DNA of 64,000 nucleotides from Terriglobus albidus (GTDB taxonomy: Bacteria; Acidobacteriota; Terriglobia; Terriglobales; Acidobacteriaceae): the NCBI RefSeq assembly GCF_008000815.1, contig NZ_CP042806.1:1922001-1986000 (forward strand), read 5' to 3'. Of the stretch, positions 4,387-53,720 are shown piece after piece. Under the pieces are notes generated by a model. That model saw only the letters and a list, made by a program, of their open reading frames with translations, ran no database searches and had not been told where the DNA came from. Both the position numbers and the translations under genes were made by a program. Position 1 is the stretch's first letter. Every line of letters begins with the position of its first letter.

Positions 4387-4503
4387 CTAGAGCATTTTTC
4401 CTGTTGCTGGGTATCCCGGTAGAGGGGTGCAGCGGCGTTTTCATTGCGGAAAACGCCCATAGATGTGCAAGCCCTACACGACACCTACAGGAAAAAGCTC
4501 TAG
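4387..4503. repeat. Family A inverted-repeat element (MITE-like), copy 1
   Basis: The 117-bp element begins CTAGAGCATTTTTCCTG and ends CAGGAAAAAGCTCTAG, giving near-perfect terminal inverted repeats of about 16 bp. Its centre is a strong hairpin, GGCGTTTTC-ATTGCG-GAAAACGCC. Copies occur at 22083-22200, 52474-52591 and 53603-53720. It has no coding capacity. The right-hand CTAG contains the stop codon of the minus-strand gene at 4500-4595. Confidence 0.85.
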
Positions 4504-4595
4504 TGGACCCGGGTGCGGCGGCGATAGATGAGAAACATCAGCACCACGACGAAAAGCACACCAGATACGATTCGAATAAGCGTTACGTTGTCCAT
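4500..4595 (-). CDS. 31-residue single-pass membrane peptide in the Tad operon
   Basis: A short frame from ATG 4595 encodes 31 residues: a short N-terminus, the hydrophobic run IVSGVLFVVVLMFLIY, and a basic tail RRRTRVH, the layout of a one-helix inner-membrane peptide with a cytoplasmic positive tail. AAGGAGA sits 6-7 bases before the ATG, and the gene starts 19 bp after tadC on the same strand, which is strong evidence that it is translated. Its TAG stop lies in the terminal CTAG of a family A repeat, so the original C-terminus may have been at the same place or slightly longer. The function is unknown; a helper of TadB/TadC is a guess. Confidence 0.65.
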   Translation of the reverse strand: MDNVTLIRIVSGVLFVVVLMFLIYRRRTRVH

Positions 4596-4614
4596 GGGAA
4601 GTCTCCTTGTTCTT

Positions 4615-5529
4615 TCAGTGGTTGAGGTATTTATCGAAGGACTCTGCCATGATGATGGCGGCAGGCCCCAGGGTGACGAGAAACAGTGAGGGGAAGATAA
4701 ACAAGACCAACGGAAAAACGAGCTTCACCGTAGTCTTGGCTGCTTGCTCCTCTACTTTTTGGCGGCGCTGGGTTCTCAGCGTGTCAGAATGTACGCGCAG
4801 CGTCTTGGCGACACTCGTACCCAACTGCTCGGACTGTACAAGTACCGAAACGAGGTTCCGTACGCTGTCGACTGCTGTGCGCTCTGCAAATTGTTTCCAG
4901 GCGTCTGAGCGGGCGCGGCCGGCGCGCTGCTCCAGAACCACGATGCCCAACTCGTCGCAGATTGCTGGGTGAGCAAGGCGCAGCTCTTCGCTGGTGCGGG
5001 CCGTCGCCTGATCCATGCTCAGTCCTGCTTCGATGCAGATGGTCAGCAGGTCAAGCACATCCGGAAGCCCCTGCCTGATCTGCGTCTGACGGTTTGTGAC
5101 CTTGCGTCCGAGCCAGAAGTCCGGTAGCAGGAATCCCAGTCCTAAAGCGATTGCATAGACAAAGAACTCATTGCCGCGCGCCAGCCCGCTGGCAAACGCA
5201 AGTGCACCCAATGTGAGAGGAACCAGCACTTTTGCGCCATAGAACAGGCTCAATGCTGAATCTTCGCGAAGGCCTGCTCGTATGAGACGCTGCTGGATAA
5301 CAGAGACCTCCGCCTGGCTTTTCGGAAGAACGCGTTCGAGATGCCCCACCATGCCACCGAGCGAAGAACCCGTCAGTTGAATGGTGCGCAGAAGAGCATG
5401 CTCTTCCTTCGCGTGGGGATTCACGACCTCCCCGATTCGCTGGAGCATGGCTTCGCGGTAGAACAGCAGAAGGCCACCACTGACAATCAAGACAAAGATG
5501 ATGAAAAATGTAACCGCAGCAAATAACAT
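4615..5529 (-). CDS. tadC: TadC, inner-membrane platform protein of the Tad pilus
   Basis: This 304-residue protein belongs to the type II secretion F / GspF family. It has an N-terminal membrane helix (about 2-22), a pair of helices around 105-140, a cytoplasmic helical F domain with GLPDVLDLLTICIEAGLSMD and SLVQSEQLGTSVAKTLR-like segments, and a C-terminal helix pair ending near KTTVKLVFPLVLFIFPSLF. TadC and TadB form the platform on which the CpaF ATPase works. It lies 10 bp after tadB. ATG 5529 is preceded by AAGGGTGCGTT. Confidence 0.9.
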   Translation of the reverse strand: MLFAAVTFFIIFVLIVSGGLLLFYREAMLQRIGEVVNPHAKEEHALLRTIQLTGSSLGGMVGHLERVLPKSQAEVSVIQQRLIRAGLREDSALSLFYGAKVLVPLTLGALAFASGLARGNEFFVYAIALGLGFLLPDFWLGRKVTNRQTQIRQGLPDVLDLLTICIEAGLSMDQATARTSEELRLAHPAICDELGIVVLEQRAGRARSDAWKQFAERTAVDSVRNLVSVLVQSEQLGTSVAKTLRVHSDTLRTQRRQKVEEQAAKTTVKLVFPLVLFIFPSLFLVTLGPAAIIMAESFDKYLNH

Positions 5530-5539
5530 AACGCACCCT

Positions 5540-6508
5540 TCAAACCTTCATGTTGACGATCTTGCGAATAATCAAAGCGCCACTGACAGTCATGAACGCC
5601 GATAGATACAGAAGCTTGATACCGATGGCATGTGTCCACAGGGTGCTCATGGTCTTCGGATTGATCAGATAGAGCGCAATGCCCAGGACGATTGGGAGGA
5701 AAGAAAGAATCCATCCTGTCAGACGCCCCTGCGCTGTATGCACCCGGATCTGCCGTTTCAGGCGGAATCTCTCCCGGATCACGTGAGCAGCTTTTTCGAG
5801 CACTTCGGCGAGGTTGCCGCCACTTTCCTTCTGGATCAGAATTGCCGTGACGACAATACGCAGATCCTGGAGAGGCACGCGTTTCACCAGATTCTCCATC
5901 GCCGTTCTCAGCTCAAGTCCGTAGTTTTGTTCGTCGAAGCAGATCTTGAACTCGCCGCTGATCGGTTCAGGAGATTCGTGCGCGACAAGCCGCAATGTGG
6001 TTACCAGGCTGTGCCCAGCACGCAGGCCGCTTACCATCAGGTCCAACGCTTCCGGCAGCTCCTGTTCCATCTGATTGAAGCGGCTGGAGCGCTTGTAGAG
6101 GACGAAGGCCAGCGGCGCCAGAGCAAAGAGAACGCCGAGCAAGAGGGAAAAGATGAGGACACCCGTCCGCCAGTACAGCAGATACGCCGGAAAGACAAAG
6201 CAGGCGGCGGACATCAGTAGCAGAGCGCCTACCGTCCATTTCAATCCAGATTGGTAAAGCAACGTACGAAGCTGAGGGGCCAATTCAAGCTGCAGCAGCC
6301 AGCGATTGATCCAGGGAACAGCGCTGAAGAGTTCTTTCTTGCGGATGTCGACGACCGAATCCGCCTCCGACCGTCCAGTGGCCAGGGCAGCATACAGGTT
6401 CGCTCGTGCGCGTTCTGCCTGCTGCGACGCGCCGGCTCCGCCGGCTGTCAGCAGCAGCGCGCACGTGGCGAATACGCCGAAGAATACCAATACCAGAATC
6501 AGCCCCAT
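5540..6508 (-). CDS. tadB: TadB, inner-membrane platform protein of the Tad pilus
   Basis: From ATG 6508 the protein is 322 residues. It begins with a hydrophobic helix (MGLILVLVFFGVFATCALLL), has a second helix pair near 95-145, and carries the type II secretion F domain with ELPEALDLMVSGLRAGHSL and ESGGNLAEVLEKAAHVIRER, typical of TadB. The frame stays open 40 codons further upstream, but AAGGAGG lies 6 bases before ATG 6508 and the extension would overlap the cpaF stop by more than 100 bp, so 6508 is chosen. It follows cpaF by 10 bp. Confidence 0.9.
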   Translation of the reverse strand: MGLILVLVFFGVFATCALLLTAGGAGASQQAERARANLYAALATGRSEADSVVDIRKKELFSAVPWINRWLLQLELAPQLRTLLYQSGLKWTVGALLLMSAACFVFPAYLLYWRTGVLIFSLLLGVLFALAPLAFVLYKRSSRFNQMEQELPEALDLMVSGLRAGHSLVTTLRLVAHESPEPISGEFKICFDEQNYGLELRTAMENLVKRVPLQDLRIVVTAILIQKESGGNLAEVLEKAAHVIRERFRLKRQIRVHTAQGRLTGWILSFLPIVLGIALYLINPKTMSTLWTHAIGIKLLYLSAFMTVSGALIIRKIVNMKV

Positions 6509-6518
6509 ATTCGCCTCC

Positions 6519-7799
6519 TTAGTTGACTTCCATCTTCTGTTCGAACAGCGCCGGCGACAGGAAAATGCCTGAGATGCGCAGCCGCTCAACAAACTTGGGA
6601 CGGATCCCGCTCGGTTCAAAGACTCCAATCACCTTGCCGTCCGGGCCAACGCCCTTTCTCTTGAAGGTGAAGATGTCCTGCATACTGATCGTGTTCTCTT
6701 CCATGCCTGTGATCTCGGAGATGCTCATGACTTTGCGGGTGCCGTCGCTCATGCGGGAGACCTGTACGACAATCGCAATCGCCGATACCATCTGCTGGCG
6801 GACACTCTTCTCCGGAAGATTGAGGTTGCTCATTGCAACCATGGACTCAAGCCTGGTGAGAGCGTCTCTCGGTGTGTTGGCGTGAATGGTGGTCATCGAT
6901 CCCTCGTGACCGGTATTCATTGCCTGGAGCATGTCGAAAGCCTCTTCACCACGGACCTCGCCGATGATGATGCGGTCGGGGCGCATACGCAGACTGTTGA
7001 TCAGCAGTTGGCGCTGACGTACGGCGCCATTACCTTCTACGTTCGGCGGCCGCGTCTCCATGCGCACGATGTTCTCAAGGCCAAGGCGCAATTCAGCGGC
7101 ATCCTCAATCGTCACAATGCGTTCGGTCTTCGGAACGTACTGCGACAGAATGTTCAGGAAGGTTGTTTTGCCGGCGCCTGTTCCGCCCGAGATAAGGATG
7201 CTGATGCGCGCCCGCACCGCGGCCGTGAGAAGCTCCATCATCTCCGGGGAGATGCTCTTCAGCTCCACCAGTTGATTGGCAGCCAATGGACCAGTGCCAA
7301 AGCGGCGGATGGACAAGGCCGGACCATCGAGCGCGAGCGGGGGAATGATGGCATTCACGCGGGAGCCGTCAGGCAGACGGGCGTCGACCATCGGAGAGGA
7401 CTCGTCGACTCTGCGTCCGACCCTGGAGACGATCCGGTCGATGATCTGCAGCAGATGACGGTCGTCCCGAAACGCCGTATCAACGCGCTGCAACATGCCG
7501 CCGCGCTCGATAAAGACGTGGTTCTTGTCATTGACAAGAATGTCGGAGATGCTTGAGTCCGCAAGCAGAGGCTCCAATGGACCCAGACCGAAGACTTCAT
7601 CCAGCAGCTCCGCTTCGATCTTTGCCTCTTCCGCGAGACTTAGCGGTACGGATTGCCGAGAGATGATCTCATTCACCATTCCGGCTACAGCCTGTCTCGC
7701 CTGGCTGTTGTTGACGCGTGACAGCTTCTCCAGGTCAAGCTTGGAAATCAGCGTCCGGTGTATCTCGGCTTTGAAATTGTCAAAATTTACTCGATCCAT
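6519..7799 (-). CDS. cpaF: CpaF/TadA secretion ATPase of the Tad pilus
   Basis: This 426-residue protein is a type II/IV secretion ATPase of the VirB11-CpaF group. After an N-terminal helical region with [20 protein letters not shown] it shows the Walker A motif GGTGAGKTT (about 204-212), an Asp box region [12 protein letters not shown], the Walker B/His region [18 protein letters not shown] (about 271-288), and [20 protein letters not shown]. These are all the catalytic motifs expected. CpaF hydrolyses ATP at the inner-membrane platform to drive pilus polymerisation. It sits between cpaE and tadB. Confidence 0.95.
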
Positions 7800-7831
7800 A
7801 CTGGCTTCATCCTTTTGAATTCTTATCTCTG

Positions 7832-9100
7832 TTATCCGAACAAGCTGAACCGCTTTTTCTTTTCGGTCTTCTCTGCTGTGCCATGGGTTTCTCGCACCAT
7901 CTCCCGGATCACTCGGGAAACCGGCGAGTCCTTGAGCACCAGCGGAACTGCTGTATTCTGCGCACTCCGGGCAGATGCCTCGTCATTTGGAATCTTCCAA
8001 CGAGCGGGCATCGTGAGCGCCTTCGTGATGTTTTCTTCATCGATCACCAGGGAGCGCGGGGTATACCGGTTCAGCACCACCTGGACCTTGGTTCCCGACT
8101 TCGATAGAAGCTCCGAGACAATCCGGTTGGCATTACGCAGATCGGGGATACCAACCTGCGTTACCAGATACACGCCCGCTCCGTCGTCAACGAGTGCATG
8201 ACCGGTAGCTCCCAGATGGGATCCCGCATCAACCACAACGTAGTCGAAGTTCTGCCGCGCAACCAACAACAATTGCTCGACTGCCTTACTCGACGGGTCG
8301 ATCTCGATGTATTTGTCTGAAGCGGCCAGAACGGACAGGCCTGACTTATGTTTCGTCAAGAGTCTCGAGAGAAAATTAGAGTCCAGGCGATGAGCTTCTT
8401 CCAGCGCATCCGCCGTTGAATACTGGGGAGCAATTCCGAGCTGAAGCGCGACATCGCCGAGAGGGAGAGTCAGGTCGATCAGCAAGACGCTCTGGTTGCT
8501 CTCCGCGCATTCCTGCGCCAGGGCTACCGCAAAGTTACAGGCGACAGTGGTGACGCCCGATCCGCCCTTCGCCCCAATGAAGACCATCGCCTTACCGGCG
8601 GTCTTGCTTACCGATCGAGAAGCCGAGCTTCGCGCCGTAGCGCGGACCAGAGCCTCTGCGATCACCGTTGAGGAAATGGGTGGTGTCAGGAACTCGCGGG
8701 CTCCGGCACGCATGCAGCGAACCAGCATCTCCGGTTGGACCAGGGAAGAGTAGACCATGACGGTGGAGGCGCCGTTCGCACAGATTGCCTCCACCAGTTC
8801 CAGTGCATACTCCGGATCACTGTCCAGTTCAACAATGACAACGTCGTAGTCGCTACCTAACGGGGATGACTTATCGCCAAGATCAGGATAGAAGCAAAAT
8901 TCGTGTGTCGTGTATCCCCAAAGCCCCGTGAGTGCATCTGCGACGAGCTGACGTTGTAACAGTTGGGGAAAAATGAGTGCAACAGATGTCACATTTCCTC
9001 CAAGCGCAGTGGAAGTATTGGCTGAATCTGTCATTGCTCGGTGGCCGTTTCTCGCTGCCAGCAATGTTCCCGACGATTGAGGTGAAGTTTGCATATTCAT
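7832..9100 (-). CDS. cpaE: CpaE/TadZ-type pilus localisation protein
   Basis: The 422-residue protein has a receiver-like N-terminal domain (about 38-160, with [20 protein letters not shown] and [12 protein letters not shown]) and a ParA/MinD-type ATPase domain from about 170. The deviant Walker A motif is [16 protein letters not shown], and [20 protein letters not shown] is the switch region. TadZ/CpaE proteins localise Tad machinery to the pole. The receiver-like domain lacks the usual phospho-acceptor context and is probably an interaction domain, as in other TadZ proteins. It starts 21 bp after cpaA. Confidence 0.88.
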
Positions 9101-9121
9101 GGCCTATAAGGTTGCGTTACG

Positions 9122-9637
9122 TTACCTGGCAAAAAACGAGATGAGTGTCCCGATGGCAATTGCCGGAGCGTACGGCATCTTTCGCGTCAGTGGGTTGTTG
9201 AGCACCAGATCTGGGTGTGGCGTAAGTCCACGCTTTCTGAAGCCGAAGATAAGATCTCCTGTGCCCTGGAACATCTCGACTGCAAATCCTCCAGCGACTG
9301 CCAGGGCGACAGCGATGATTCCGCCCGCGATTCCGGTCATTACAAGAGCAACCAGCATCTGCGACGGTCCAACCCATGCACCGATTGCACCGCAGAGCTT
9401 GACGTCACCCATCCCCATGCCGCCCATCAGGCAAAGTAGGCCGAACAGTGCGGCGCCAACGGCCAGGCCGGCAGTGCTCTGCATAAGACCGTTGAGGCCA
9501 TGCTGCAGGCCGGAGACAACAAATCCGGTGATAAGGAATGGAAACACCAGCCAGTTCGGGATACGCCGGCTGCGAAGGTCAGTGACAGTTGCCACCGCGA
9601 CTACGATCAATGTTGGCCACCAGGCAGCGGAATGCAT
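9122..9637 (-). CDS. cpaA: CpaA/TadV prepilin peptidase (A24 family)
   Basis: The 171-residue polytopic protein carries both catalytic aspartates of A24 aspartic peptidases: the first in VTDLRSRRIPNWL (about residue 20) and the second in GGMGMGDVKL (about residue 76). It lacks the N-terminal methylase domain, as is usual for the short TadV/CpaA enzymes. It would cleave the leaders of the Flp pilin and of the TadE-like pseudopilins. It is the first gene of the operon. A GGGAG site precedes ATG 9637, and a candidate sigma-54 promoter lies about 50 bp upstream. Confidence 0.9.
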   Translation of the reverse strand: MHSAAWWPTLIVVAVATVTDLRSRRIPNWLVFPFLITGFVVSGLQHGLNGLMQSTAGLAVGAALFGLLCLMGGMGMGDVKLCGAIGAWVGPSQMLVALVMTGIAGGIIAVALAVAGGFAVEMFQGTGDLIFGFRKRGLTPHPDLVLNNPLTRKMPYAPAIAIGTLISFFAR

Positions 9638-9685
9638 ATGAGCTAACTCCCAAGGGAGAAATCAATGAAAATCACTGGACCCAGT

Positions 9686-9701
9686 TGCAATTGCCGATCC
9701 A
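9686..9701 (-). promoter_or_regulatory. Candidate sigma-54 (RpoN) promoter of the Tad operon
   Basis: On the minus strand the site reads TGGATCGGCAATTGCA. It has GG and GC separated by exactly 10 bases and a full TTGCA at -12, against the consensus TGGCACG-N4-TTGCW; only the fourth and fifth bases differ. Transcription would start near 9675, leaving a leader of about 38 nt before cpaA. A sigma-54 activator gene is divergent next to it, which supports the call. Confidence 0.65.
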
Positions 9702-9737
9702 AAATTTTGGGGCTGATTTAGCTCAAAGTGTTTACGG

Positions 9738-9747
9738 CTGTATACAG
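9738..9747. promoter_or_regulatory. Palindrome CTGTATACAG, possible activator site
   Basis: A perfect 10-bp palindrome lies about 40 bp upstream of the candidate sigma-54 promoter, where an enhancer-binding protein could sit. Only one copy is evident and 10-bp palindromes arise by chance, so this is tentative. Confidence 0.25.
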
Positions 9748-15875: not shown

Positions 15876-17012
15876 CTACGTCGAAGGCGCCTCTGGGTAG
15901 GTGCGGTTCTTCCATCCGCCGCCTCGGCCCATATAGTGACGGAACGCTGAGGCAACGGTGGCGCCCAGGTAGAACATTGCAATGCCCGGAAGCGCGACTC
16001 CCCACAAGGGAGATCTGCGATATCGCCGAAGCGTCGGCTGCAAGGCGATTACCATCATGAGCCATGCGGCAGCGGCAAGCGCGCTGGTCAGACCATGTCC
16101 AAACAGGGCCAGCAGCACCGGAGCCACGTACAGTAATCCCATGCCCGCAATGCAGCCAAGCAGCATGAGTGGAGAATGGCCGAGCTGCACATAGGCAGTG
16201 CGTGCAATCATGTTCCAGACCTCGCGCCAGTCTGCATAGACACGCAATGACCGGGCAAGTTCGGCGTGTCCCAGCCAGATCTTCCCGCCTGAAGACTTGA
16301 TCTGGCGAGCCAGAGCGCAGTCGTCGATCAGATGGTGCTGAATGCGGCGTACGCCATCGACGCGCTCAAGAGCTGTGCGGCGAACGAGCATCGTTCCGCC
16401 GGCCGCGCCGGCAACGGTGCGACGCGGGTCCGCTACCCATGCAAAGGGGTAGAGCATCTGGAAGAAGAAGATAAAGGCGGGAATCAGAGCTCGTTCCGCT
16501 GGCGTACTGCAGTGAAGGCGCACCATCTCCGAGACGAGGTCACGGCCGTTTGCTTCGGCTTCATGCACCAGCATTGCGACATGCGTAGATGCATGCTCGA
16601 TGTCCGCGTCAGTCAGCAGGATATAGTCTGCACTTTGAGCCTCCGGCTGCACCAGCCCCTGGTGAACAGCCCATAGCTTGCCGCTCCATCCAGCCGGAAG
16701 AGGCTGGCCCGAGACGATCGTCAGCCGTCCCTGGTTCAACAGGGACGCGGCGATCTCCGCAGTCCCGTCGGCATTGTTGTCATCGACGAGGATGATGGAA
16801 AGCGCTCCTGGATACTGCTGCGCGAGAAGCGAGCTAAGACTGCGTCCGATGTTTTCAGCCTCGTCGCGGGCCGGCACGACCACCGCGACCTTCGCATCAG
16901 CGCAGGGCGTCTTGCTCTCGCGTAAGACAGGGCCGGAGCTCCAGAAACGGCCATGGAGTGCAAGCAGGTACAGCCACGCGGCGCAGCAGACAGCAGCAAG
17001 AAAAATGATCAT
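15876..17012 (-). CDS. hpnB: HpnB-like family 2 glycosyltransferase (hopanoid-associated)
   Basis: The 378-residue protein has an N-terminal membrane helix, then a GT-A domain with VAVVVPARDEAENIGRSL, IILVDDNNADGTAEIA, the DxD-like YILLTDADIEHA, and the acceptor-side RRIQHHLIDDCALARQI. At least three C-terminal membrane helices follow, and the end reads YMGRGGGWKNRTYP. This order and the GGGW-K/N-R-Y end are those of the hopene-associated glycosyltransferase HpnB. No other hopanoid gene is in the window, so the hopanoid link rests on the family. It is divergent from the gene at 17104. Confidence 0.72.
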   Translation of the reverse strand: MIIFLAAVCCAAWLYLLALHGRFWSSGPVLRESKTPCADAKVAVVVPARDEAENIGRSLSSLLAQQYPGALSIILVDDNNADGTAEIAASLLNQGRLTIVSGQPLPAGWSGKLWAVHQGLVQPEAQSADYILLTDADIEHASTHVAMLVHEAEANGRDLVSEMVRLHCSTPAERALIPAFIFFFQMLYPFAWVADPRRTVAGAAGGTMLVRRTALERVDGVRRIQHHLIDDCALARQIKSSGGKIWLGHAELARSLRVYADWREVWNMIARTAYVQLGHSPLMLLGCIAGMGLLYVAPVLLALFGHGLTSALAAAAWLMMVIALQPTLRRYRRSPLWGVALPGIAMFYLGATVASAFRHYMGRGGGWKNRTYPEAPST

Positions 17013-17103
17013 CGGCTCGATTTATTGTCTCGCGAGCTGCCGGGTGTGGCTGTGTATAGTACGTTGTACACTCATCGACAACGATCAAACAGGGAGGTTG
17101 CAT

Positions 17104-17601
17104 ATGCGTCGTGCCTGGATGCGGACGGTTGTGATTGCTGCTTTTGTACTAGCCTTCGGTTGTGTCACCACCTCATGTTTTGCGCAACAAACTGCCGAAC
17201 GCCAGATTCTGTTCGTCTGCGAACACGGGAATGTGAAGAGTCTTATGGCGGCGTCGTACTTCAATCAAAATATCCGCGAGTTCAATCTCCCATATCGGGC
17301 GGTAGCGCGTGGAAGTGCTCCTGATTCCACGACTGTGCCGGCACCCATCGTGCAGGGCCTGGGGCACGACGGCATTGATGTGAGCACCTTTCAGCCCACG
17401 AAGGTGAGCGCGTCTGACATTGCTTCCCCAGTCCGTATCATCCTGATCGGAACATCATTACCTGCCAATCTGCAGGCGAGCTCAAAAGTCCGGATTGAAC
17501 AGTGGAACGATGTTCCTCCGGCCAGCGTTGATTTTGAAGCAACACGGGAATCTCTGAGAAAACACGTCCGGGAATTGATCGCACAGCTGCCCAGGCGCTA
17601 G
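17104..17601 (+). CDS. Exported low-molecular-weight phosphatase/arsenate reductase-like protein
   Basis: From ATG 17104 (GGGAGG 6 bases upstream) the protein is 165 residues. A signal peptide ends at about SCFA-QQ (residue 27). The mature part begins with QILFVCEHGNVKSLMAASYF, which aligns with the LMW-PTP/ArsC P-loop CX5R-S at the N-terminus of the fold. The invariant Arg is Lys here (C-EHGNV-K-S), and the usual C-terminal catalytic Asp-Pro is not obvious, although WNDVPPASVDF sits about where it would be. Export and the loss of Arg argue against ordinary phosphatase chemistry. Its TAG stop lies in the CTAG terminus of a family B element. Confidence 0.6.
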   Translation: MRRAWMRTVVIAAFVLAFGCVTTSCFAQQTAERQILFVCEHGNVKSLMAASYFNQNIREFNLPYRAVARGSAPDSTTVPAPIVQGLGHDGIDVSTFQPTKVSASDIASPVRIILIGTSLPANLQASSKVRIEQWNDVPPASVDFEATRESLRKHVRELIAQLPRR

Positions 17602-17767
17602 TGTGGTGAGTCTAAAGTTCGCAACATAAATCATGAACAGCTTTGCCATCCGAAGCGTTGAAAAAGCAGGTCCTTCACTAATCACCCCAGCCAGCACAGC
17701 TGGCCGGGGACCCCGGACGTTCAGGATGACAACATTTACGACAAGAACTTCAGACTCAGGACACTAG
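17598..17767. repeat. Family B inverted-repeat element (MITE-like), copy 1
   Basis: The 170-bp element starts CTAGTGTGGTGAGTCT and ends with the reverse complement of CTAGTGTCCTGAGTCT, so the termini are imperfect inverted repeats of about 24 bp beginning with CTAG. Inside lies the REP-like core (AAGCAGGTCCTTCACTAATC ... GTTCAGGATGACAA) shared with 236-277. A second copy is at 34144-34309. The left CTAG contains the stop codon of the gene at 17104-17601. No coding capacity is seen. Confidence 0.8.
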
Positions 17768-19992: not shown

Positions 19993-19996
19993 GCGG

Positions 19997-21988: not shown

Positions 21989-22082
21989 TTATGGTGTATC
22001 ACCACAAAGGAAGGAGTGTCAACTCGTTGCTGATTCGATAGCGGGCTCAACCGGCTTTGTTTACGAGGGCGGTCGCGCGTGT

Positions 22083-22200
22083 CTAGAGCATTTTCCCTGT
22101 TGCTGGGTATCCCGGAAGTGACGTGCAGTGGCGTTTTCATTGGGGAAAACGCCCATAGGTGCGGAAGCCCTACTCTACACCTACAGGGAAGATGCTCTAG
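22083..22200. repeat. Family A inverted-repeat element, copy 2
   Basis: It begins CTAGAGCATTTTCCCTG and ends CAGGGAAGATGCTCTAG, with the same central hairpin (GGCGTTTTC ... GAAAACGCC). The right-hand CTAG (22197-22200) supplies the TAG stop of the minus-strand secretin gene. Confidence 0.85.
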
Positions 22201-23630
22201 CGGTCAGATCTGGCATCGAGGACATAGGGAGTCATTACGATCACGAGTTGCGTAGTGGTTTTATCCAGCATCGACTCTGTCGGCACGGCAGACGTCAGAC
22301 CACGAATGGCTCGTGTCTCCGATTGACTCACATCGCTGACCAGCAGTGCGCTTCCGTTGTGCGGAACGGACAGAGATGTTGCAAATTCCTGGTTGTCAAG
22401 TATAGGAATACCATTCGCCTTCTGTCCCTGAAGGCCCCGTATCGTCTGATGGAGCTCCAGGCAAGTGTCTCCCTCTGCTGACAGATGCACTTTGGTCTCC
22501 AGCGTGACTCCCAGGTCTTCATACTGGATGCTTGGAGTAGTTGTGCTGCTGCTTGAGGATGTGGATGAGGTTGTCACGCTTGTTCTGGAGGTTTCAATCG
22601 GATATCTCTGTCCGAAGCGGAGCTTCCCGCTACTTCCATCTGCAAGTAGCAGGGTCTGCTCCTGCAGGCGCTCAAGCTTTGACCGTTGCAGGCTGGTTTG
22701 AACTGACGCGGAATCGAACTGAACGCCGGTGGCCGTGCGCCCTCCCCCGAAATAAACAGAAGAGTTTCCCAATACCGAGCTTCCGGCATATCCGCTAGCG
22801 ATCAGTAGCGATGCAATCGTCAGGACGTCACCTTCGGAGGCAAGGCCCTCGCTAATGATCTCCTCAACGACCGATGCATTGTCCCGGATCAGCTTGTTGG
22901 CTTCCGTAAGTACATTGAAGAACGTGAACTTCGTCGGGAACTCGATGCCTGCTTTACGAGTGTTGGTGGACGTAACGAGGTAGGAACGCATTACAAGGCG
23001 AACGCGAGGAGTCGGGCGATAGAGATGCTCTGCGGTCCTGGAGATCTGGTCCAGCGCTTCGGGATCTCCACGGACGGTCAGAAGACCATCATGAAGAGAT
23101 GCTCCTGGTAGCTCAAAAACTGTGGAGGCCAAACGAGAGATAACTTCCGATTCCTTGCGATCGACCACATTGTTGACGGGAATTATGGCGACGCTTTTCC
23201 TCGAGAAGGCTGATCGGTTTTCGGGAGTATTCGCAACAACAAGAGCAAGATGCTTGTTAATCGGTACAAAGAAAGAGTTGGTCATTATGCCGAGGACGTA
23301 GCCTGCCGTCGATAGGTCAGCTCCCTCCAGATCAAACCGGATAGACCGCTGTGGCGGAATGGATGGATGCGCCCACACAACATCAACACCATAGACGTGC
23401 AGCACTTGTTTGAGGATTGCCTTAGCATCCCCCTCAAGATGAAAGCTACGGCAGTCCTGACATGCGGGATTCTCGATCATTGACGAACTCTGTGTGGCCT
23501 CTTGCGCAAAGAGGCTAAGCGGGAAAGAGACAGCGAGTACAAGCGCTCCTGTTGCGATTCCATGACATCTCACACTACTTTGACGATGTTTCTCGACGAC
23601 CGCGTACAGCTCGACATTTTTCGACAGCAT
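22197..23630 (-). CDS. Secretin-family protein (short form)
   Basis: The 477-residue protein has a signal-like hydrophobic stretch (about 26-42, GALVLAVSFPLSLFA), an STN/N0-like region (ILKQVLHVYGVDVVWAHPS ... RFDLEGADL), an N1-like domain (ISRLASTVFELPGASLHDGL, VRGDPEALDQISRTAEHL), and a C-terminal secretin domain: FGQRYPIETS, a Ser/Thr-rich loop, YEDLGVTLETKVHLSAEGD and TTTQLVIVMTPYVLDAR. Secretins form outer-membrane pores for type II, IV or Tad secretion. The CQDC pair near residue 60 is unusual. The start at 23630 has a poor ribosome site, so the first 20-25 residues are uncertain. The stop lies in a family A repeat. It is divergent from a second secretin gene. Confidence 0.75.
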   Translation of the reverse strand: MLSKNVELYAVVEKHRQSSVRCHGIATGALVLAVSFPLSLFAQEATQSSSMIENPACQDCRSFHLEGDAKAILKQVLHVYGVDVVWAHPSIPPQRSIRFDLEGADLSTAGYVLGIMTNSFFVPINKHLALVVANTPENRSAFSRKSVAIIPVNNVVDRKESEVISRLASTVFELPGASLHDGLLTVRGDPEALDQISRTAEHLYRPTPRVRLVMRSYLVTSTNTRKAGIEFPTKFTFFNVLTEANKLIRDNASVVEEIISEGLASEGDVLTIASLLIASGYAGSSVLGNSSVYFGGGRTATGVQFDSASVQTSLQRSKLERLQEQTLLLADGSSGKLRFGQRYPIETSRTSVTTSSTSSSSSTTTPSIQYEDLGVTLETKVHLSAEGDTCLELHQTIRGLQGQKANGIPILDNQEFATSLSVPHNGSALLVSDVSQSETRAIRGLTSAVPTESMLDKTTTQLVIVMTPYVLDARSDR

Positions 23631-33148: not shown

Positions 33149-34147
33149 ATGACCCCGATCATTGCCATCACCATGGGAGATGCAGCAGGTGTCGGCCCGG
33201 AGATCATCGTTAAAGCCCTCATGCACAAAGAGGTCTATGAGCGTTGCCGGCCACTCGTCATTGGGGATGCTCGCCGGCTCAGACAGGCCGCTGAGATCGT
33301 TCATGCAGAGCTCACCATTCATCCCCTGATCGAAGAACGCCTCTCAGAGGCCAGTTTTACTCCCGGAGTGATCGACTGCATTGACCTTGCCCTGATCCCT
33401 GACGATCTTCCATGGGGCAAGATATCTCCAATTGCCGGAGATGCGGCTTACCGTTATCTCAAAGTCGCAGCCAGGCTTGCGATGAATGGCGGCATCCAGG
33501 CCATCTGCACCGCGCCGCTTAATAAGGAAGCGCTTCATGCAGGCGGTCATCTCTTTCCCGGGCATACTGAGCTGCTCGCATCGCTAACCGGTGCGGGAGA
33601 AGTCTCGATGATGCTCTCGACCCCGAAGTTACGTGTTGTGCATGTCACAACCCATATTGGTCTTATCGATGCCATTGAGAAGATTGATGCCGATTTGGTT
33701 GAGCGAACCATCACCCGCGCCCATGCGGCACTTGAGCGCGCCGGCGTCAAGGATCCACGCATCGGCGTGTGCGGCATCAATCCTCATGCCGGCGAGAACG
33801 GACTCTTCGGCCGCGGCGAGGAGGGCGAGAAGATCGTACCGGCTGTTGAGGCGTGCAGGAGCAGAGGGTGGGATGTGAAGGGACCGCTCCCGGCGGACAC
33901 CCTGTTTTTTCTAGCTCAGCGCGGTGATTTCGACATGGTGGTCGCCATGTATCACGACCAGGGCCATGGGCCGGTGAAAGTCCTGGGGTTGGAATCAGGA
34001 GTAAATATTACCCTCGGGCTCCCCGTGATTCGTACCTCCGTCGATCATGGAACGGCCTTCGATATCGCCGGAACGGGCCAGGCCGACGAGCGTAGTTTGC
34101 TCGAAGCCATCAACCAGGCAATTCAACTAGCAACAGTTGGAAGCTAG
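33149..34147 (+). CDS. pdxA2: PdxA2-type 4-phospho-threonate/erythronate dehydrogenase
   Basis: The 332-residue protein is a PdxA-family dehydrogenase: ITMGDAAGVGPEI at the start, CTAPLNKEALHAGG, PGHTELLA, GINPHAGENGLFG, and the metal site MYHDQGHGPVKVLGLESGVN. It ends with TSVDHGTAFDIAGTGQAD. The GHGPVK variant and the pairing with a sugar-acid permease favour the PdxA2 branch, which decarboxylates D-threonate or D-erythronate 4-phosphate to dihydroxyacetone phosphate, over PdxA of vitamin B6 synthesis. The partner kinase (DtnK/DenK) is not in the window. AAGGAAGAG precedes the ATG. The TAG stop lies in a family B repeat terminus. Confidence 0.8.
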   Translation: MTPIIAITMGDAAGVGPEIIVKALMHKEVYERCRPLVIGDARRLRQAAEIVHAELTIHPLIEERLSEASFTPGVIDCIDLALIPDDLPWGKISPIAGDAAYRYLKVAARLAMNGGIQAICTAPLNKEALHAGGHLFPGHTELLASLTGAGEVSMMLSTPKLRVVHVTTHIGLIDAIEKIDADLVERTITRAHAALERAGVKDPRIGVCGINPHAGENGLFGRGEEGEKIVPAVEACRSRGWDVKGPLPADTLFFLAQRGDFDMVVAMYHDQGHGPVKVLGLESGVNITLGLPVIRTSVDHGTAFDIAGTGQADERSLLEAINQAIQLATVGS

Positions 34148-34309
34148 TGTCCTGAATCTAAAGGTCATGACATAAATCACGAAGAGCTTTGCCCCCGAAG
34201 CCTTGAAAAGCAGGTCCTTCACTAATCACCCCAGCGAACAAGTTCGCCGGGGACCCCGAACGTTCAGGATGACAACATTTATGACAAGAACTTCTTAGAC
34301 TACACACTG
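34144..34309. repeat. Family B inverted-repeat element, copy 2
   Basis: It begins CTAGTGTCCTGAATCT and ends with a degenerate terminus (reverse complement CCAGTGTGTAGTCT). The interior matches 17598-17767 closely (ACATAAATCA, AAGCAGGTCCTTCACTAATC, GTTCAGGATGACAACATTTA). The left CTAG contains the pdxA2 stop codon. It fills most of the 198-bp gap to the next gene. Confidence 0.8.
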
Positions 34310-45875: not shown

Positions 45876-45908
45876 AATCAACACACCTAGTTGAAGATTG
45901 AGAGAGAT

Positions 45909-47967: not shown

Positions 47968-48040
47968 CTTTGTCAAAACCTTCTTTTGATCCTTTTTGTG
48001 CTTCGATTGCTACGATAGAGGCACTCTCTATGAGCAGTGA

Positions 48041-49114
48041 ATGACGCGGCCGGACCAAAGTATTGACCGAAATGGCCACACTCGAATGACGGCGTCGATA
48101 GGCAAGATTTCACTTTCCATCCGAACTGTTCAGCCTGTTCTCGCCTACATTTCTGGCAAAGGCTATGACAGTTCCGACTTTCTGCGATCCAACAATGTCG
48201 ATCCCTCGATCGTTCGCGATCCTGAAGCGCGTTTGCCTCATAATGTAGCGGTCTCATTGTGGCTGGCTGCAGGACGGCTGACGAATGATCCGAATCTGGG
48301 GCTTCATGTTGCCGGAGGTATTCGGCCTGGTGTGTATGGAGCACTGGACTATGCTGTGCGAACTTGCGAAACCCTGGGAGAAGGGCTGCAACGGCTTTGT
48401 CGCTATCATCGCTTTCTGCATGACATCGCGGAGACGAGACTCTCTGTCAACGGCGACCGTGCGATTCTCAATCATTTCCTGCCTCTCCCTGGGGGACCGC
48501 CAAGCGCAGTTTCGGAATATGTCGTGGCAAGTTGGCTGCTGGGCACACGTCAGGCTACCGGTTTAAATTGGACTCCCCTCGAGGTGCGGTTCCCTCACAC
48601 AGCGCCGGCTGACACGTCTGAACACAAGCGGTTGTTCGGTTGTAGCCTGAAATTCGGATGCGAGAGAAGTGAATTGGTTTTTGCGCGAGAACTTCTCGCA
48701 ACCCCTCTCCTAAAAGCCGATCCCGCTCTCCAGGCAATCCTGGAAGCTCATGTTGTAGCTATCATCGAAAGACTGCCAAAAGCAGAGGCGATAACAGATG
48801 CGGTTCGTCGTCATCTCGCCGGCGAACTGGGTAAACATCAGCCGAATCTCGAACGTATCGCACCCCGCATGCATATGACATCGAGAACGTTACGCAGGCG
48901 GTTGGATGAGGAAGGGACGAGCTTTCGCCAGATCCTCACTGATGTGCGACGTGAAATGGCCGTGCGCCATTTATTGGAAGGCCGTTTGGCTATTGGTGAA
49001 ATCGCGTTTCTACTCGGTTTTTCAGAGCCCAGTGCTTTTCATCGTGCTTTCAAGCATTGGACTGGTCATGCGCCACTCGCCTATCGTGCGGCACCTCCGC
49101 AGACCGGATCTTGA
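48041..49114 (+). CDS. AraC family transcriptional regulator with arabinose-binding-like N-terminal domain
   Basis: The 357-residue protein has an N-terminal domain of the Arabinose_bd (OruR/ArgR-type) kind (GSYD-like LGLHVAGGIRPGVYGALDYA and CETLGEGLQRLCRYHRFLHD) and a C-terminal AraC double helix-turn-helix: PNLERIAPRMHMTSRTLRRR, FRQILTDVRREMAVRHLL and IGEIAFLLGFSEPSAFHRAF. Members control catabolic or virulence genes; the target here is not clear, but the GH172 gene starts 67 bp downstream. An ATG at 48086 may be the true start. Confidence 0.88.
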   Translation: MTRPDQSIDRNGHTRMTASIGKISLSIRTVQPVLAYISGKGYDSSDFLRSNNVDPSIVRDPEARLPHNVAVSLWLAAGRLTNDPNLGLHVAGGIRPGVYGALDYAVRTCETLGEGLQRLCRYHRFLHDIAETRLSVNGDRAILNHFLPLPGGPPSAVSEYVVASWLLGTRQATGLNWTPLEVRFPHTAPADTSEHKRLFGCSLKFGCERSELVFARELLATPLLKADPALQAILEAHVVAIIERLPKAEAITDAVRRHLAGELGKHQPNLERIAPRMHMTSRTLRRRLDEEGTSFRQILTDVRREMAVRHLLEGRLAIGEIAFLLGFSEPSAFHRAFKHWTGHAPLAYRAAPPQTGS

Positions 49115-49181
49115 GGAAGTGATATCCTCCACGTCGTTAAGAAATGTCGCAAATGTGATGTGTCGGAGGGTTTGCTGAGGC

Positions 49182-50330
49182 ATGAAGTCCACAATCGTGT
49201 TTGTACTGTTCCTGGTTATGTCGTCCTGTTTTGTCCACGGCCAAGGTCTGGAGGGCTTTCCCGACCCCACGGTGCAGCAGACTTACACTATGCACCGGTC
49301 TTCGAGCCGTGAAGCTACCGGAGCGAATGCGGATTTCCGGACAATCACCCCTGGGGAAACTCTGACGATTCTTGATGTCGACGGCCCCGGCAGAATTTCA
49401 CACATCTGGTTCACCCTGAATGCTCCGGAGAGCTATCACCTGAAGCGTGCTGTTTTGCGCATGTACTGGGACGGAGAGAGCACGCCGAGTGTTGAGACGC
49501 CAATTGGAGACTTTTTCGGTTTGGGCAATGGCCAGTACTATTTCTGGTCGTCGCCGGTTTTGTCTGTTGGAACGGATCGCTCTCTCAATAGCTACTTTCC
49601 AATGCCGTATGCCAAGCATGCTCGTATCACCGTAACCAATGAAGGCAAGCAGTCGGTCAGCAACTTGTATTGGAATATTGATTATCGGCAGGAATTAAAA
49701 CCTCTACCTGCCGGTACGTTGTATTTTCACGCGCAATATCGGCAAGCGCAGCCGAATCATGGCTGGGTCTCCGACTGGTACGACAACGGTGATCCACGTG
49801 TGAACTACCGCCGCAACCTCGATGGCAAAGATAACTACGTATGGTTCGAAGCCAAGGGGCATGGGCAATTTATTGGTGTAACCATGTCTGTGCTGCAAAA
49901 CCAGGATGGATGGTGGGGGGAAGGGAACGACCGGTTTGAAGTCGACGACGGCGCCGTACCGACGGTTGTAGGAACGGGATCAGAAGACTACTTCCTGGGA
50001 GCGTGGGATTTCGGCGCGCCTCAGAGTTTTCTGCTACACGGCTCCCCGGTGGTGGGCCCAGAGCTCGCTGGATCTCGATCAAGTGTCTATCGTTTCCATC
50101 TTGATTCGCCAATTCCTTTTAGCAAGTCGATGAAGGCGAGCATTGAACATGGCCATGCCAATGCTCGTTCCGACAACTTCTATTCCGTTGCGTACTGGTA
50201 TCAAGCTGAGCCTCACGCGCCTTTTCCCGCTCTGCCTGAGATGAGTGAACGAATCCCTGCATTACAGGCGGTGGGCGGACCCGGCAATGCGAAGCAGCCT
50301 CGTCAGGAAGCTGACCCTCAGCCGAGGTGA
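49182..50330 (+). CDS. Exported DUF2961/GH172 family protein
   Basis: The 382-residue protein has a signal peptide (1-20, ending CFVHG) and the DUF2961 pattern: LDVDGPGRISHIWFTL, RMYWDGESTPSVETPIGDFF, FPMPYAKHARITVTNEGK and DGAVPTVVGTGSEDYFLGAW with the catalytic Glu region. DUF2961 is now glycoside hydrolase family 172, whose members act on D-arabinofuranosyl or D-fructofuranosyl linkages. Export fits a polysaccharide-degrading soil organism. The C-terminal 25 residues are low complexity. Confidence 0.85.
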   Translation: MKSTIVFVLFLVMSSCFVHGQGLEGFPDPTVQQTYTMHRSSSREATGANADFRTITPGETLTILDVDGPGRISHIWFTLNAPESYHLKRAVLRMYWDGESTPSVETPIGDFFGLGNGQYYFWSSPVLSVGTDRSLNSYFPMPYAKHARITVTNEGKQSVSNLYWNIDYRQELKPLPAGTLYFHAQYRQAQPNHGWVSDWYDNGDPRVNYRRNLDGKDNYVWFEAKGHGQFIGVTMSVLQNQDGWWGEGNDRFEVDDGAVPTVVGTGSEDYFLGAWDFGAPQSFLLHGSPVVGPELAGSRSSVYRFHLDSPIPFSKSMKASIEHGHANARSDNFYSVAYWYQAEPHAPFPALPEMSERIPALQAVGGPGNAKQPRQEADPQPR

Positions 50331-50345
50331 CTGTTATCTGATTGG

Positions 50346-51302
50346 CTAAAGAGGCGGCTGGCTATCATGATGTCGATAAATCGGAAAGTGATGATGGGCA
50401 CGTACGACATAGTGTCCGATCATCCACCCGGCAATGGAGCCAAGGAGTACATCCGTGGGGAAGTGTTTTTCGGCAAGTACACGTGTAAGAGAGGTGGCTG
50501 TCGCTCCGGAATAGATTGCGACTTGCTTCCACCGTGACGGATATTCAGCAGCGATCACCGCGGCGGCGGACCATGCCGTCATGGAGTGGCCAGAGATGAA
50601 AGAGGAGTTCGTCCCCGAAGAGAGTTGGTAGAAGTTGCCGGCATAGTTATCAACATTACTAGGACGTTCACGAAAAGACGCCAGTTTGACGATTTGCTGA
50701 AAAATCTGAGCATCCCCTTCCGCTTCGCCGGAGAGCAGGCCTGTTTCTCGAAGGTGATCGTTATGAGTAGCGATTCCGATCCCGTACATTGCGGCCGACC
50801 CACCGACATAGCCATACTCCAAAACATAGGAGACATTATCAGCAGCGTTGTTGAAGCCAGGATCGTGGCTGACAATATCGCGGGCAACGCGACTATCCTG
50901 CGTAAGAGAAACCCCGGTCGCAGCTGCAACCGGGAGTATCCATCTGAAATCCCCTGGGCGGATATAGATGGGAGAGGTAAAAATACGATACGTATCGCCC
51001 ACCACATTCAGCGGAATCTGCTTGAGCGTGACTGGTGGATGAGGGATGTCCTCAAGCGGAATCTTGCCCTGACCATGCGGTTTGGCGGTGATGAGTGAAG
51101 AGGGTGCGTTCGGCAGGTTGGCTTGAGTCGCCGGATTTGTCTGCGGTTGTGGTGTTTCCTTTTTTTCGGGCTTGTTCTGGTCGGCTGGAGCGGTGCTCTT
51201 CTGTGGCGTGGAGGAATCGTTCTGTGCGACAACCGATGTTGCGGTACAAATCAAAATACATATTACGAAGGAGAGCGAGCGCCGGTTAGTAACCGTTCTC
51301 AC
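50346..51302 (-). CDS. Exported PAP2-family phosphatase
   Basis: From GTG 51302, preceded by AAGGAGG, the protein is 318 residues. A signal peptide (RSLSFVICILICTATSVVAQ) is followed by a Pro/Gln/Asn-rich linker (about 25-75) and a PAP2 domain with all three motifs: KLASFRERPS, SSFISGHSM and SLTRVLAEKHFPTDV. The family dephosphorylates lipid phosphates, including undecaprenyl pyrophosphate, phosphatidic acid and lipid A phosphates. The frame is open 58 codons upstream but has no ribosome site there. It lies near a diacylglycerol-kinase-like gene and a PagL-like gene. Confidence 0.85.
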   Translation of the reverse strand: MRTVTNRRSLSFVICILICTATSVVAQNDSSTPQKSTAPADQNKPEKKETPQPQTNPATQANLPNAPSSLITAKPHGQGKIPLEDIPHPPVTLKQIPLNVVGDTYRIFTSPIYIRPGDFRWILPVAAATGVSLTQDSRVARDIVSHDPGFNNAADNVSYVLEYGYVGGSAAMYGIGIATHNDHLRETGLLSGEAEGDAQIFQQIVKLASFRERPSNVDNYAGNFYQLSSGTNSSFISGHSMTAWSAAAVIAAEYPSRWKQVAIYSGATATSLTRVLAEKHFPTDVLLGSIAGWMIGHYVVRAHHHFPIYRHHDSQPPL

Positions 51303-51582
51303 AACTGAGCCCCTCCTTGCCGTCTGCGGGAAGATAAATAAGACGATGAGGAAGGCTGAGAATTCTGCGCTACCGGTAAGCCCGACACAATCCCAACCAT
51401 CGAAGCGCTCTAACTGCGGCACGAGAAACGTCATTATCACAAAGAAGATCGCGACGAGTTGGAGAGGCCGATTCATCGGTAACCTCTTGTCAATGACGTT
51501 AGATGCGCATGGACCTTACGTCGGGCTTAAGTCGGATAGCAGACAGTCTGTCGTCAAGATGGTTTCTTGATAGTTAGAGGCA

Positions 51583-52467
51583 TTAGCCGGTAATAATCGG
51601 AACCTGAAGTGTCAGAAATTTTAACTGCAAAGGCAACTTCCCAATGAGTTCGCCGTCGATCTGAACTGGAAGTGATCCGCTTCCTTCAAGAATGACCTCT
51701 TGACACACGCTGATCCGAAGGTTGCGGCTCTGACCGTGAATGGCAAACAGCATTCTGGCCAATTGAAGGGCAAGTCTGAGTCTTCCCCTTTGCTGAAAAC
51801 TGACAACATGGAATGTTGGCTGTTTAATGTCTGCATGTGGCGTCAACTTCAGGCCACCCGCGAAACGCTGGATTCGTGTGACGATGACCCAGTGAGCGAC
51901 CCACTCCTCTTGAGGAGTTCGAATTGAAATAGGTTTTTCGTTATGTATCCATAGCGTGGCCAGGGCAGTCGCTATGATTCCGAATGTTCCGAAGCGGCGT
52001 GCTTGATATTTTTCGAAGATTTGGACGGCTGCAGCGTCAAAGCCCACACCAACGACGAACGCGAACGGGTGCCCATTGCAAACACTGACGGGAACCTTGA
52101 AGGTGGGCCCACGCATCAGCACTTCCGCAAGGGCAACAGGCGTGGTTGGTAGATCTATCTCCCGACTGAAGATGTTGGCGGTCCCAGAGGGAATCAAACC
52201 CAGCGGAATGTTCGAGCCGGCGATGCCGCGAAGCACATCATGCAATGTTCCGTCTCCACCCGCAGCGACGATTGCATCGAACTGCCCGCTTAGTGCTGCG
52301 TCTTTGGCGATACGCTCACCACGTTCATGTTGTGTCGTATCGACGATAGATATGTGGCAGCCAGCCCGCTGCAGTTCCCGAACGGTATTTCGAAACAACA
52401 AACGGCCTCGGGTGCCGGCGTTCGGGTTGTGGATCACGCAGAATCGTTTACGCAAGTCGGAACCCAC
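51583..52467 (-). CDS. Diacylglycerol/lipid kinase family protein (YegS/BmrU-like)
   Basis: The 294-residue protein has the DAGK catalytic domain motifs: FCVIHNPNAGTRGR, DAIVAAGGDGTLHDVLRG and LGLIPSGTANIFSREI, and the C-terminal sandwich with LPVQIDGELIGKLP. It would phosphorylate diacylglycerol or a related lipid. The start is GTG 52467, with no Shine-Dalgarno sequence, and a family A repeat begins only 7 bp upstream (52474). The natural promoter and ribosome site may have been displaced by the element, or transcription may start in it. Confidence 0.85.
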   Translation of the reverse strand: MGSDLRKRFCVIHNPNAGTRGRLLFRNTVRELQRAGCHISIVDTTQHERGERIAKDAALSGQFDAIVAAGGDGTLHDVLRGIAGSNIPLGLIPSGTANIFSREIDLPTTPVALAEVLMRGPTFKVPVSVCNGHPFAFVVGVGFDAAAVQIFEKYQARRFGTFGIIATALATLWIHNEKPISIRTPQEEWVAHWVIVTRIQRFAGGLKLTPHADIKQPTFHVVSFQQRGRLRLALQLARMLFAIHGQSRNLRISVCQEVILEGSGSLPVQIDGELIGKLPLQLKFLTLQVPIITG

Positions 52468-52473
52468 ATCGAT

Positions 52474-52591
52474 CTAGAGCATTTTTCCTGTTGCCGGGTA
52501 TCCCGGGGGAAACGTGCAGTGGCGTTTTCATTGCGGAAAACGCCCATAGATGAACTAGTCCTGCACTACACCTACAGGAAAAAGGCTCTAG
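52474..52591. repeat. Family A inverted-repeat element, copy 3
   Basis: It begins CTAGAGCATTTTTCCTG and ends CAGGAAAAAGGCTCTAG with the shared central hairpin. This is the one family A copy not located at a gene's stop codon; it lies directly upstream of the lipid kinase start. The rest of the 431-bp gap to 52899 holds no recognised feature. Confidence 0.85.
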
Positions 52592-52898
52592 CCGCGCTCG
52601 GTCGGGGATTGAAGATGCCGGCATGAAGATAATCATGACTGGGAATCGGCTGCAAAGAGAAGCTTAGAACATACAAGATGATCGATGAGGAGAGGTTGCC
52701 AGGCTTCGGAAAGAGAAGCCGCATCCGCATCTGCCTGAAGAATGCTTTGGGAGTATTGCAAGACTGAAGGTCATGATGAGTCGTCTCAGTAGTCTGGGAT
52801 CTGATGACGGCTCTCAAGCAATCCAATCCGCGCGGATGGGAGAAAACCTCCAATTAATACAAGCCTGCATCTTAATCCATATCTATGGGGTTGAGGCT

Positions 52899-53606
52899 AT
52901 GCCGCTCATCTCTTTGTTTCGCTGTAGGATCGCCCTTTTTACGGTCCTTCTGTTTACGGCTCCACTCATCGGCCAGTCCGTCCAAATGACCAATGATCTC
53001 TCTATTGGAATCTCGCCCCCTCCCCGACCTCCAGGCAAGGTCCACCGGGTTCAAGGGAGTGAACTTTCTGTCACTCTGATGATTCCAGACGGGAGCTATC
53101 GGCTCTTCAGCGCTACTCTGCAATGCTCCGCATGGACGGCAGGCATTGAATACGAGCGCCCTATGGGCCACATGTTCAGAATGCGTGTAGACTACGCCGC
53201 CGAGGTGATTCCTGTCTTTATCCTAAGTCAGCCAGCAAGGGCTGATTTTTGGGGGTATGCTATGACCGCCGACCAGAAATCGGTCCCTGGCATCTCTATC
53301 CTGCCTGTTGGATTTCGATTCCTGTTATTCGAGAACAGCAGAATCAGGCCTTTCGCCGTAGGAAAACTAGGGGGCGTTGTTTTCAATCAAAAGGCGCTCT
53401 CGCCTGCCGCAAGCAAGTACAACTTCAACATCCAGGCAGCCGCCGGCCTCTTATATGCGGTGAATAAGAGATATGACTTCCGTTTGGAACCCTTCGAATT
53501 TTTCCATGTCTCTAACGGTTATATGGCTGCAAGCAACCCCGGCATGGACGAGCTCGCAGTCCGAGTAGGAGTTACCTATCACTTTTCATCAACTGCGAAG
53601 GATTAG
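52899..53606 (+). CDS. PagL-like acyloxyacyl hydrolase (lipid A 3-O-deacylase family)
   Basis: From ATG 52899 the protein is 235 residues with a signal peptide (about 1-24, ending PLIGQ). The C-terminal half has the PagL barrel signature: RPFAVGKLGGVVFNQK, then FEFFHVSNGYMAASNPGMDE, with the His-Ser-Asn catalytic region (about 201-204) and the NPG turn, and a final strand VRVGVTYHF. PagL removes the 3-O acyl chain of lipid A in the outer membrane. TGAGG precedes the ATG; upstream in-frame codons do not encode a signal peptide. The stop TAG is the terminus of a family A repeat. Confidence 0.75.
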   Translation: MPLISLFRCRIALFTVLLFTAPLIGQSVQMTNDLSIGISPPPRPPGKVHRVQGSELSVTLMIPDGSYRLFSATLQCSAWTAGIEYERPMGHMFRMRVDYAAEVIPVFILSQPARADFWGYAMTADQKSVPGISILPVGFRFLLFENSRIRPFAVGKLGGVVFNQKALSPAASKYNFNIQAAAGLLYAVNKRYDFRLEPFEFFHVSNGYMAASNPGMDELAVRVGVTYHFSSTAKD

Positions 53607-53720
53607 AGCATTTTCCCTGTCGGTGTAGAGTAGGGTTTCCGTATCTATGGGCGTTTTCATTGCGGAAAACGCCCATAGATGCACAAGCCCTGCCCGACAC
53701 CTGCAGGAAAAATGCTCCAG
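53603..53720. repeat. Family A inverted-repeat element, copy 4 (fold-back variant)
   Basis: It begins TTAGAGCATTTTCCCTG and ends CAGGAAAAATGCTCCAG. The two halves are nearly complete inverted copies of each other (left GTGTAGAGTAGGG... mirrors right ...GCCCTGCCCGACAC), so this copy is a full fold-back, whereas copies 1-3 have a different left half. The left TAG (53604-53606) is the stop codon of the PagL-like gene. Confidence 0.8.

Follow-up and report, generated by a model that had tools for sequence, protein, structure and literature searches.

A miniature inverted-repeat transposable element (MITE) of the acidobacterium Terriglobus albidus, here called family A, is found at stop codons more often than the distribution of eligible insertion sites would predict, and at these places the end of the element itself supplies the stop codon of the adjacent gene. 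Family A is very probably a non-autonomous element of the IS630/Tc1-mariner type which rebuilds stop codons when it inserts at their TA dinucleotide, and whose copies at stop codons persist. It was recognised in a window of 64,000 nucleotides (bases 1,922,001-1,986,000 of contig NZ_CP042806.1, a one-contig genome of 6.41 Mb with the label G000) which contains four copies of family A and two copies of a second family, family B. A preliminary description of the window had reported six copies in two families, with a terminal TAG acting as the stop codon of a neighbouring gene in five of the six; the copy search found all six at the same places and the gene calls agree.

It is proposed that a transposase supplied in trans would insert the element at TA, preferably within YTA or YTAR in the case of family A (Y, pyrimidine; R, purine), and duplicate the TA. 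As the element starts with G, a stop codon hit at its TA, whether TAA or TAG, would read TAG after insertion and the end of the protein would be kept. Insertions inside genes would be lost and those at stops, or in intergenic DNA that tolerates them, would persist, which would make stop codons a safe harbour; in about half of the cases the hit converts a TAA to TAG. The TA on both sides, the G-first ends, the excess at stops and the empty sites in relatives can all be read from the sequence itself.

Structure and target sequence of family A

Family A is about 115 bp long, carries no gene and has ends of the form TA-GAGCATTTYYCCTGT. Copies were located by an nhmmer profile and genes were called by a home-made hexamer model, both in 80 stretches of 20 kb taken at fixed steps from G000 (1.6 Mb) and in 40 stretches of 20 kb taken in the same way from two of the 60 contigs of a related genome, G008 (0.8 Mb). 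Once copies with no recognisable end had been left out (17/91 in G000, 25/79 in G008 and 4/35 at loci of two further relatives, G012 and G015), the length of the two-ended copies, including one TA on each side, was 116 bp in 34/74 cases in G000 and in 26/54 in G008. Family A is thus short and non-coding, with terminal inverted repeats, a TA duplication and empty sites in relatives, as is characteristic of MITEs. No family A element of insertion sequence (IS) length is present in the 2.4-Mb sample, where three pairs of ends lie 228-382 bp apart and 81 ends stand alone.

In G000, 507 ends match TAGAGCATTTTTCCTGT with at most three mismatches compared to two for a control pattern. Halving the number of ends gives about 250 copies and extrapolation from the 91 copies of the sample about 360. 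With two mismatches, 489 ends are found in G008, 337 in G012 and 317 in G015, and 0 or 1 in the other genomes of the 18 congeners. The spread within the genus is therefore patchy, 3/18 other genomes carrying hundreds of family A ends. Family A copies are also nested in one another, and members of the two families adjoin with one TA in common (L087:2548, L129:19285, L041 and L063:19842).

The inverted repeats had been described as beginning with CTAG. The repeats themselves are confirmed; reading inward, each end consists of a flanking base, the TA and the element's own G, so that the leading C or T is flanking DNA, the TA is the duplicated target and the repeat proper starts with G. The "CTAG" of the window copies of family A is accordingly Y-TA followed by the G of the element, with Y being C three times and T once. 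Among the two-ended copies in G000 a left TA is present in 61/74 and a right TA in 62/74, and TA on both sides together with the inferred original codons bears out the earlier proposal of an IS630-type TA duplication in which the first base G rebuilds TAG.

The target of family A was deduced from copies with intact TA and full flanks, which leaves out 13/74 copies in G000 and 8/54 in G008. The left flanking base is Y in 55/61 and 42/46 copies, respectively, and the right flanking base, which is less constrained, is R in 30/61 and 35/46. The inferred empty site reads YTA or TAR in 59/61 and 46/46 copies and strict CTAG in 10/61 and 14/46 (24/107). CTAG, which the preliminary description had favoured, is thus rejected as the target of family A in favour of YTA or YTAR, and roughly every second original stop was a TAA that became TAG. 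IS630 itself reportedly prefers the TA in CTAG, as the title of a 1991 paper by Tenzen and Ohtsubo has it. CTAG is indeed rare as had been argued, 1.6 Mb containing 812 sites where 1970 would be expected; as an explanation this rarity fails for family A and can concern family B only.

Excess at stop codons

Family A supplies a stop in 28/74 two-ended copies in G000 and 18/54 in G008, and in 6/16 and 8/15 of the best-matching loci in G012 and G015, respectively. If the element is removed and one TA kept, the original codon is TAA at 32, TAG at 28 and TAT at one of 61 ends, which amounts to TAA or TAG at 60/61. The totals of insertions outside gene interiors, 69 in G000 and 51 in G008, omit copies inside genes (four and two) and at stretch edges (one and one); stops account for 28/69 against 14.2% expected from eligible sites (p 7e-8) and for 18/51 against 15.0% expected (p 2.7e-4), which is the excess that had been set as a check. 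Weighting the sites by the target motif, taken from the copies away from stops, does not remove it, since 22/61 insertions are at stops where 9.1% are expected (p 8e-9). The gene calls may undercount such cases, as a copy at L211 was not called stop-associated and yet a relative stops there.

At the stops of G000 it is the right end of family A that adjoins the gene in 22 copies, the left end in five and both in one (p 0.0015 for 22/27), and in G008 the right end does so in seven and the left end in 11. An asymmetric use of the target is unexpected for IS630. TAG is also the commonest called stop (460/1247 in G000 and 235/651 in G008), beyond what the few element-made stops explain.

A rather probable alternative is that survivorship alone has produced the pattern, with insertion being blind to genes and the excess at stops reflecting only that harmful insertions are lost and that the 3' ends of genes are tolerant. 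When both samples are pooled, insertions per 1000 eligible TA sites amount to 36.7 at stops (46/1253), 17 in the 30 nt after a stop (17/993), 8.8 in other intergenic DNA (57/6448) and 0.2 in gene interiors (6/34218). Gene interiors are almost empty and the 30 nt after the stop are enriched over other intergenic DNA as well (p 0.024), both as survivorship would have it. Among copies no more than 30 nt from a stop, 45/60 are at the stop itself, which is only modestly above the 38.1 expected from eligible TA sites. Against survivorship on its own stand this conditional test (p 0.004) and a residual enrichment of stops, twofold relative to the 30 nt that follow them (p 0.006). The rates by site class and the conditional test together imply that the pattern mostly follows from where harmless TA sites lie, with a modest residue. 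Survival of harmless insertions is thus the larger part of the preferred explanation too, accounting for most of the pattern, and what sets the alternative apart is that it denies any targeting of stops. The opposite possibility, that the stop is itself a hot target, is unlikely; in this reading the G-first end and the YTAR preference of this IS630 clade would constitute a way of inserting that preserves stops, and insertion as well as survival would favour stops and steadily convert TAA to TAG within the genus.

Still less likely is recruitment, in which the hairpin at a gene end would be kept as a terminator or protector of the transcript. The hairpins predicted for two copies and for a consensus are strong (-54 to -75 kcal/mol). 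However, the window copies have no T-run at the element ends, both orientations occur at stops, and family A is under-represented between convergent genes at distances of over 30 nt from a stop (1/1120 eligible sites against 56/5328 in the other classes compared), where a terminator would be useful.

Empty sites in related genomes

Between G000 and G008 there are 17 pairs of flanks that align across the site of a copy, and 10 of these concern stop-associated copies. One of the ten is occupied in both genomes and one has a large gap; in all of the remaining eight, including one with a gap of 5 nt next to the site, the orthologue has its stop at that very codon, which is TAA in four cases and TAG in four. 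At two further clean empty sites (L199 and L028) the relative again stops at the same codon, and at the site L188/L209 it does so while reading TAGAGC in place of TAACC. As L212 and L213 repeat one of the eight, the usable family A sites number 11, and the relative stops at the same codon position at 11/11. Unoccupied sites in relatives have a single TA. The preliminary description had predicted that such sites would read CTAG at the stop and that the protein would be left unchanged. The stop is at the same codon position at every usable family A site, in one case with altered bases after it, and the protein keeps its end there; CTAG is not the rule, four of the first eight stops being TAA, and the agreement does not extend to the family B copy at pdxA2, which ends the gene three codons before the stop of its relatives. 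The secretin-domain gene of the window has no close orthologue among the congeners, where identity is 33% at best, and thus offers no empty site.

At L177 (about 9459-9490) G008 reads TAGAGC for TAACC at a stop that is occupied by family A in G012 and G015. TAGAGC in G008 is possibly an excision footprint, and no footprints of the form TAGAGC-N0..4-GCTCTA were found in the 120 sampled stretches.

The empty sites also bear on whether the association is an artefact, in which in-frame insertions would truncate genes and the gene calls would then end at the element. Any in-frame TA insertion would make a TAG, one end has TAT as its original codon and the pdxA2 product is shorter than in relatives, all of which an artefact would accommodate; with 60/61 original codons being TAA or TAG and 11/11 usable relatives stopping at the same place it is nevertheless very improbable.

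Relationship to IS630

The ends of family A are closely similar to the ends of IS630-family elements of 1 kb, which were found only in related genomes and not in G000. Like IS630 elements, family A uses a TA target, duplicates the TA and has ends shared with elements that encode IS630 transposases (L282 and L184). The element at L282 has GAGCATTTCTCCTG at both ends, a variant that is also present among family A ends. L184, in G015, is a 996 bp element with the inverted repeats TA-GAGCA...GTGTAC that encodes an IS630 transposase (NF033545 of NCBIfam, E 5e-34, and PF13358). Its gene lies in two overlapping frames (L184:1387-2306), an arrangement known from transposases expressed by frameshifting. 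Over the 211-aa transposase query, an IS element of G015 is identical to an element in Acidobacteriaceae bacterium isolate Bin6.3. Relatives of the L184 transposase are found in hosts including Bradyrhizobium, a planctomycete and genomes of the same class, and a search in which only TA ends were required gave an inverted-repeat pair in 31/70 loci, the first base being G in 26 of these pairs and the first four bases GAGC in 23. When GAGC-type ends were required, a pair was found in 46/94 loci, with an inferred empty site of CTAG in 28 and YTAR in 42. From these resemblances we infer that an IS630-type transposase moves family A in trans, and purifying selection against coding insertions would then shape where the copies are retained.

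DDE_3 transposases number two in G000, two in G008 (one of them partial) and one in G015. The IS630 elements of G000 itself were rejected as partners, as their ends differ; in contrast to family A, these copies (L061 and L062) begin with T after the TA, such that a stop would become TAT. REP elements moved by RAYT are unlikely given the long TA-flanked inverted repeats and the IS630-like ends, although no search for RAYT (Y1 transposase) was made. An IS5-type partner was rejected too, since DUF4096, which we take to be the IS5-type domain, has a single match in the four genomes and the ends that resemble family A belong to IS630 elements. Least probable of all is that the elements belong to the IS5 group and duplicate the 4 bp of YTAR, like MITEPsy1 in a published report, in the available part of which the target is similar, CTAG or YTAA (PMC3189936): such a duplication was rejected because TAA targets read TAG on the element-proximal side and TAA on the other, which means that only TA is duplicated.

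Family B is probably likewise a non-autonomous element of IS630/Tc1-mariner type, and is weakly similar to the GTGTNCTGA ends of L310. The 16/30 loci without a pair of ends, including the pdxA2 copy of the window, were left out. Among the best-matching two-ended copies the empty site is CTAG in 8/14 and a stop is supplied in 8/14, compared to 106/356 (30%) harmless CTAG sites being stops (p 0.03); in the fixed-step sample 3/6 copies are at stops. The stop excess of family B is thus weak, and CTAG fits as a target better for family B than for family A.

Several observations weigh against an IS630-type element that preserves stops. In pdxA2, G008, G012 and G015 have a sense codon at the position of the TAG and end at a TGA three codons later (frames compared by eye); here a stop came into being either earlier than the insertion or together with it, and the protein is three residues shorter. 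One original codon of family A is TAT, and the stop counts from the four genomes are not fully independent, some insertions being common to genomes. In G000 no partner was found that shares the ends of family A, the two IS630 copies there having others, and a DDE_3 search of G012 (94% complete) gave no match, though hundreds of family A ends are present there. The G-first count among the 46 pairs obtained when GAGC-type ends were required is partly imposed by the search pattern, and the 46 are not independent, as L184 and L217 are one element and several copies come from the same genome. No clear excess at stops is seen in full-length IS630 relatives, where ends with 80 or more open codons number 17/92 in frame and 29/184 in the other frames. 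The link of family B to IS630 consists of a short similarity at the ends, GTGTACTGA/GTGTGCTGA in L310 against just GTGTCCTGA in family B.

Comparison with known elements

The comparison draws on the available parts of the papers cited, and the statements on each system apply to those parts. ISY100 inserts at TA and duplicates it (PMC2170065). Family A is like IS630 and ISY100 in its duplicated TA target and in having ends found on IS630 transposase elements, and differs from them in being 115 bp long, in lacking a gene and in its YTA target, whose other flank is under a weaker preference. RUP of pneumococcus is about 107 bp long, has a TA target and is thought to be moved by IS630-Spn1, and the available text of its description contains no stop-codon niche (PMC2229807). 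BOX, also of pneumococcus, comes closest with regard to stops: according to a 2011 paper, 36 of the 58 coding sequences that overlap a BOX repeat have their stop encoded by it, without strong evidence of truncation (PMC3049150). It is a composite repeat of another kind, and the portion available contains neither a rebuilding mechanism nor an empty-site test. ERIC/RU-1 is a TA-flanked palindromic repeat with TA duplication, which differs in that an amidase given as an example lost its normal stop and was extended (PMC2759123). QMITE2 of Coxiella is a MITE at the 3' end of enhC which, unlike family A, extends the protein (PMC5896051). The main text of a 2024 review of prokaryotic MITEs, as far as available, does not contain the term "stop codon" (PMC10969869).

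The earlier statement that no description of a stop-codon niche exists was too strong in view of the BOX stops in 36 pneumococcal genes. MITE-encoded stops are known already from BOX; for the rebuilding of stops by TA-duplicating elements a literature search with slight coverage of subscription journals found no account. The mechanism provides a simple rule that can be tested in any genome, namely that a TA-targeting element starting with G or A keeps TAA and TAG stops and one starting with C or T destroys them. It would also illustrate how a genome dense with genes can come to contain a mobile element in hundreds of copies, and constitute a route by which transposition edits the identity of stop codons.

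Copies in the window

The features of the window are listed in Table 1. Compared with the reference copy at 22082 the other family A copies are 71-85% identical, and inverted-repeat matches place the copy at 53603 in inverted orientation. The ends have the form C/T-TA-G...C-TA-G with the exception of one right end with CA (53718) and one with TG (34308). Of the names given earlier to the host genes, those of the secretin, PdxA and PagL are backed by Pfam. The 31-aa open reading frame (ORF) and ORF 16678-17601 gave no match in the Pfam search, and have low coding scores of 17 and 29, respectively.

Table 1. Elements and host genes in the window (window coordinates; family A coordinates include both TA copies)
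Feature	Position	Strand	Relation to stop codon	Inferred empty site	Remarks
Family A MITE	4388..4502	+	Right end is TAG stop (4500-4502, minus) of 31-aa ORF	CTAG	
Family B MITE	17599..17766	+	Left end is TAG stop (17599-17601, plus) of ORF 16678-17601	CTAG	
Family A MITE	22084..22199	+	Right end is TAG stop (22197-22199, minus) of secretin-domain protein	CTAG	
Family B MITE	34145..34309	+	Left end is TAG stop (34145-34147, plus) of pdxA2		Second TA is TG; stop of relatives three codons further
Family A MITE	52475..52590	+	No called stop at copy	CTAG	
Family A MITE, inverted	53604..53719	-	TAG stop (53604-53606, plus) of PagL-like gene	TTAG	Second TA is CA
ORF without Pfam match	16678..17601	+	Ends in family B		Called start 17119
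Secretin-domain gene	22197..23630	-	Ends in family A		
pdxA2 gene	33149..34147	+	Ends in family B		
PagL-like ORF	52773..53606	+	Ends in family A		Called start 53181

An Rfam search of the window gave no match. At positions 248-280 and 624-656 the window contains an inverted repeat with GCGAAGGACC, which resembles the core of family B (AGGTCCTTCGCT), and parts of this core are also found alone elsewhere.

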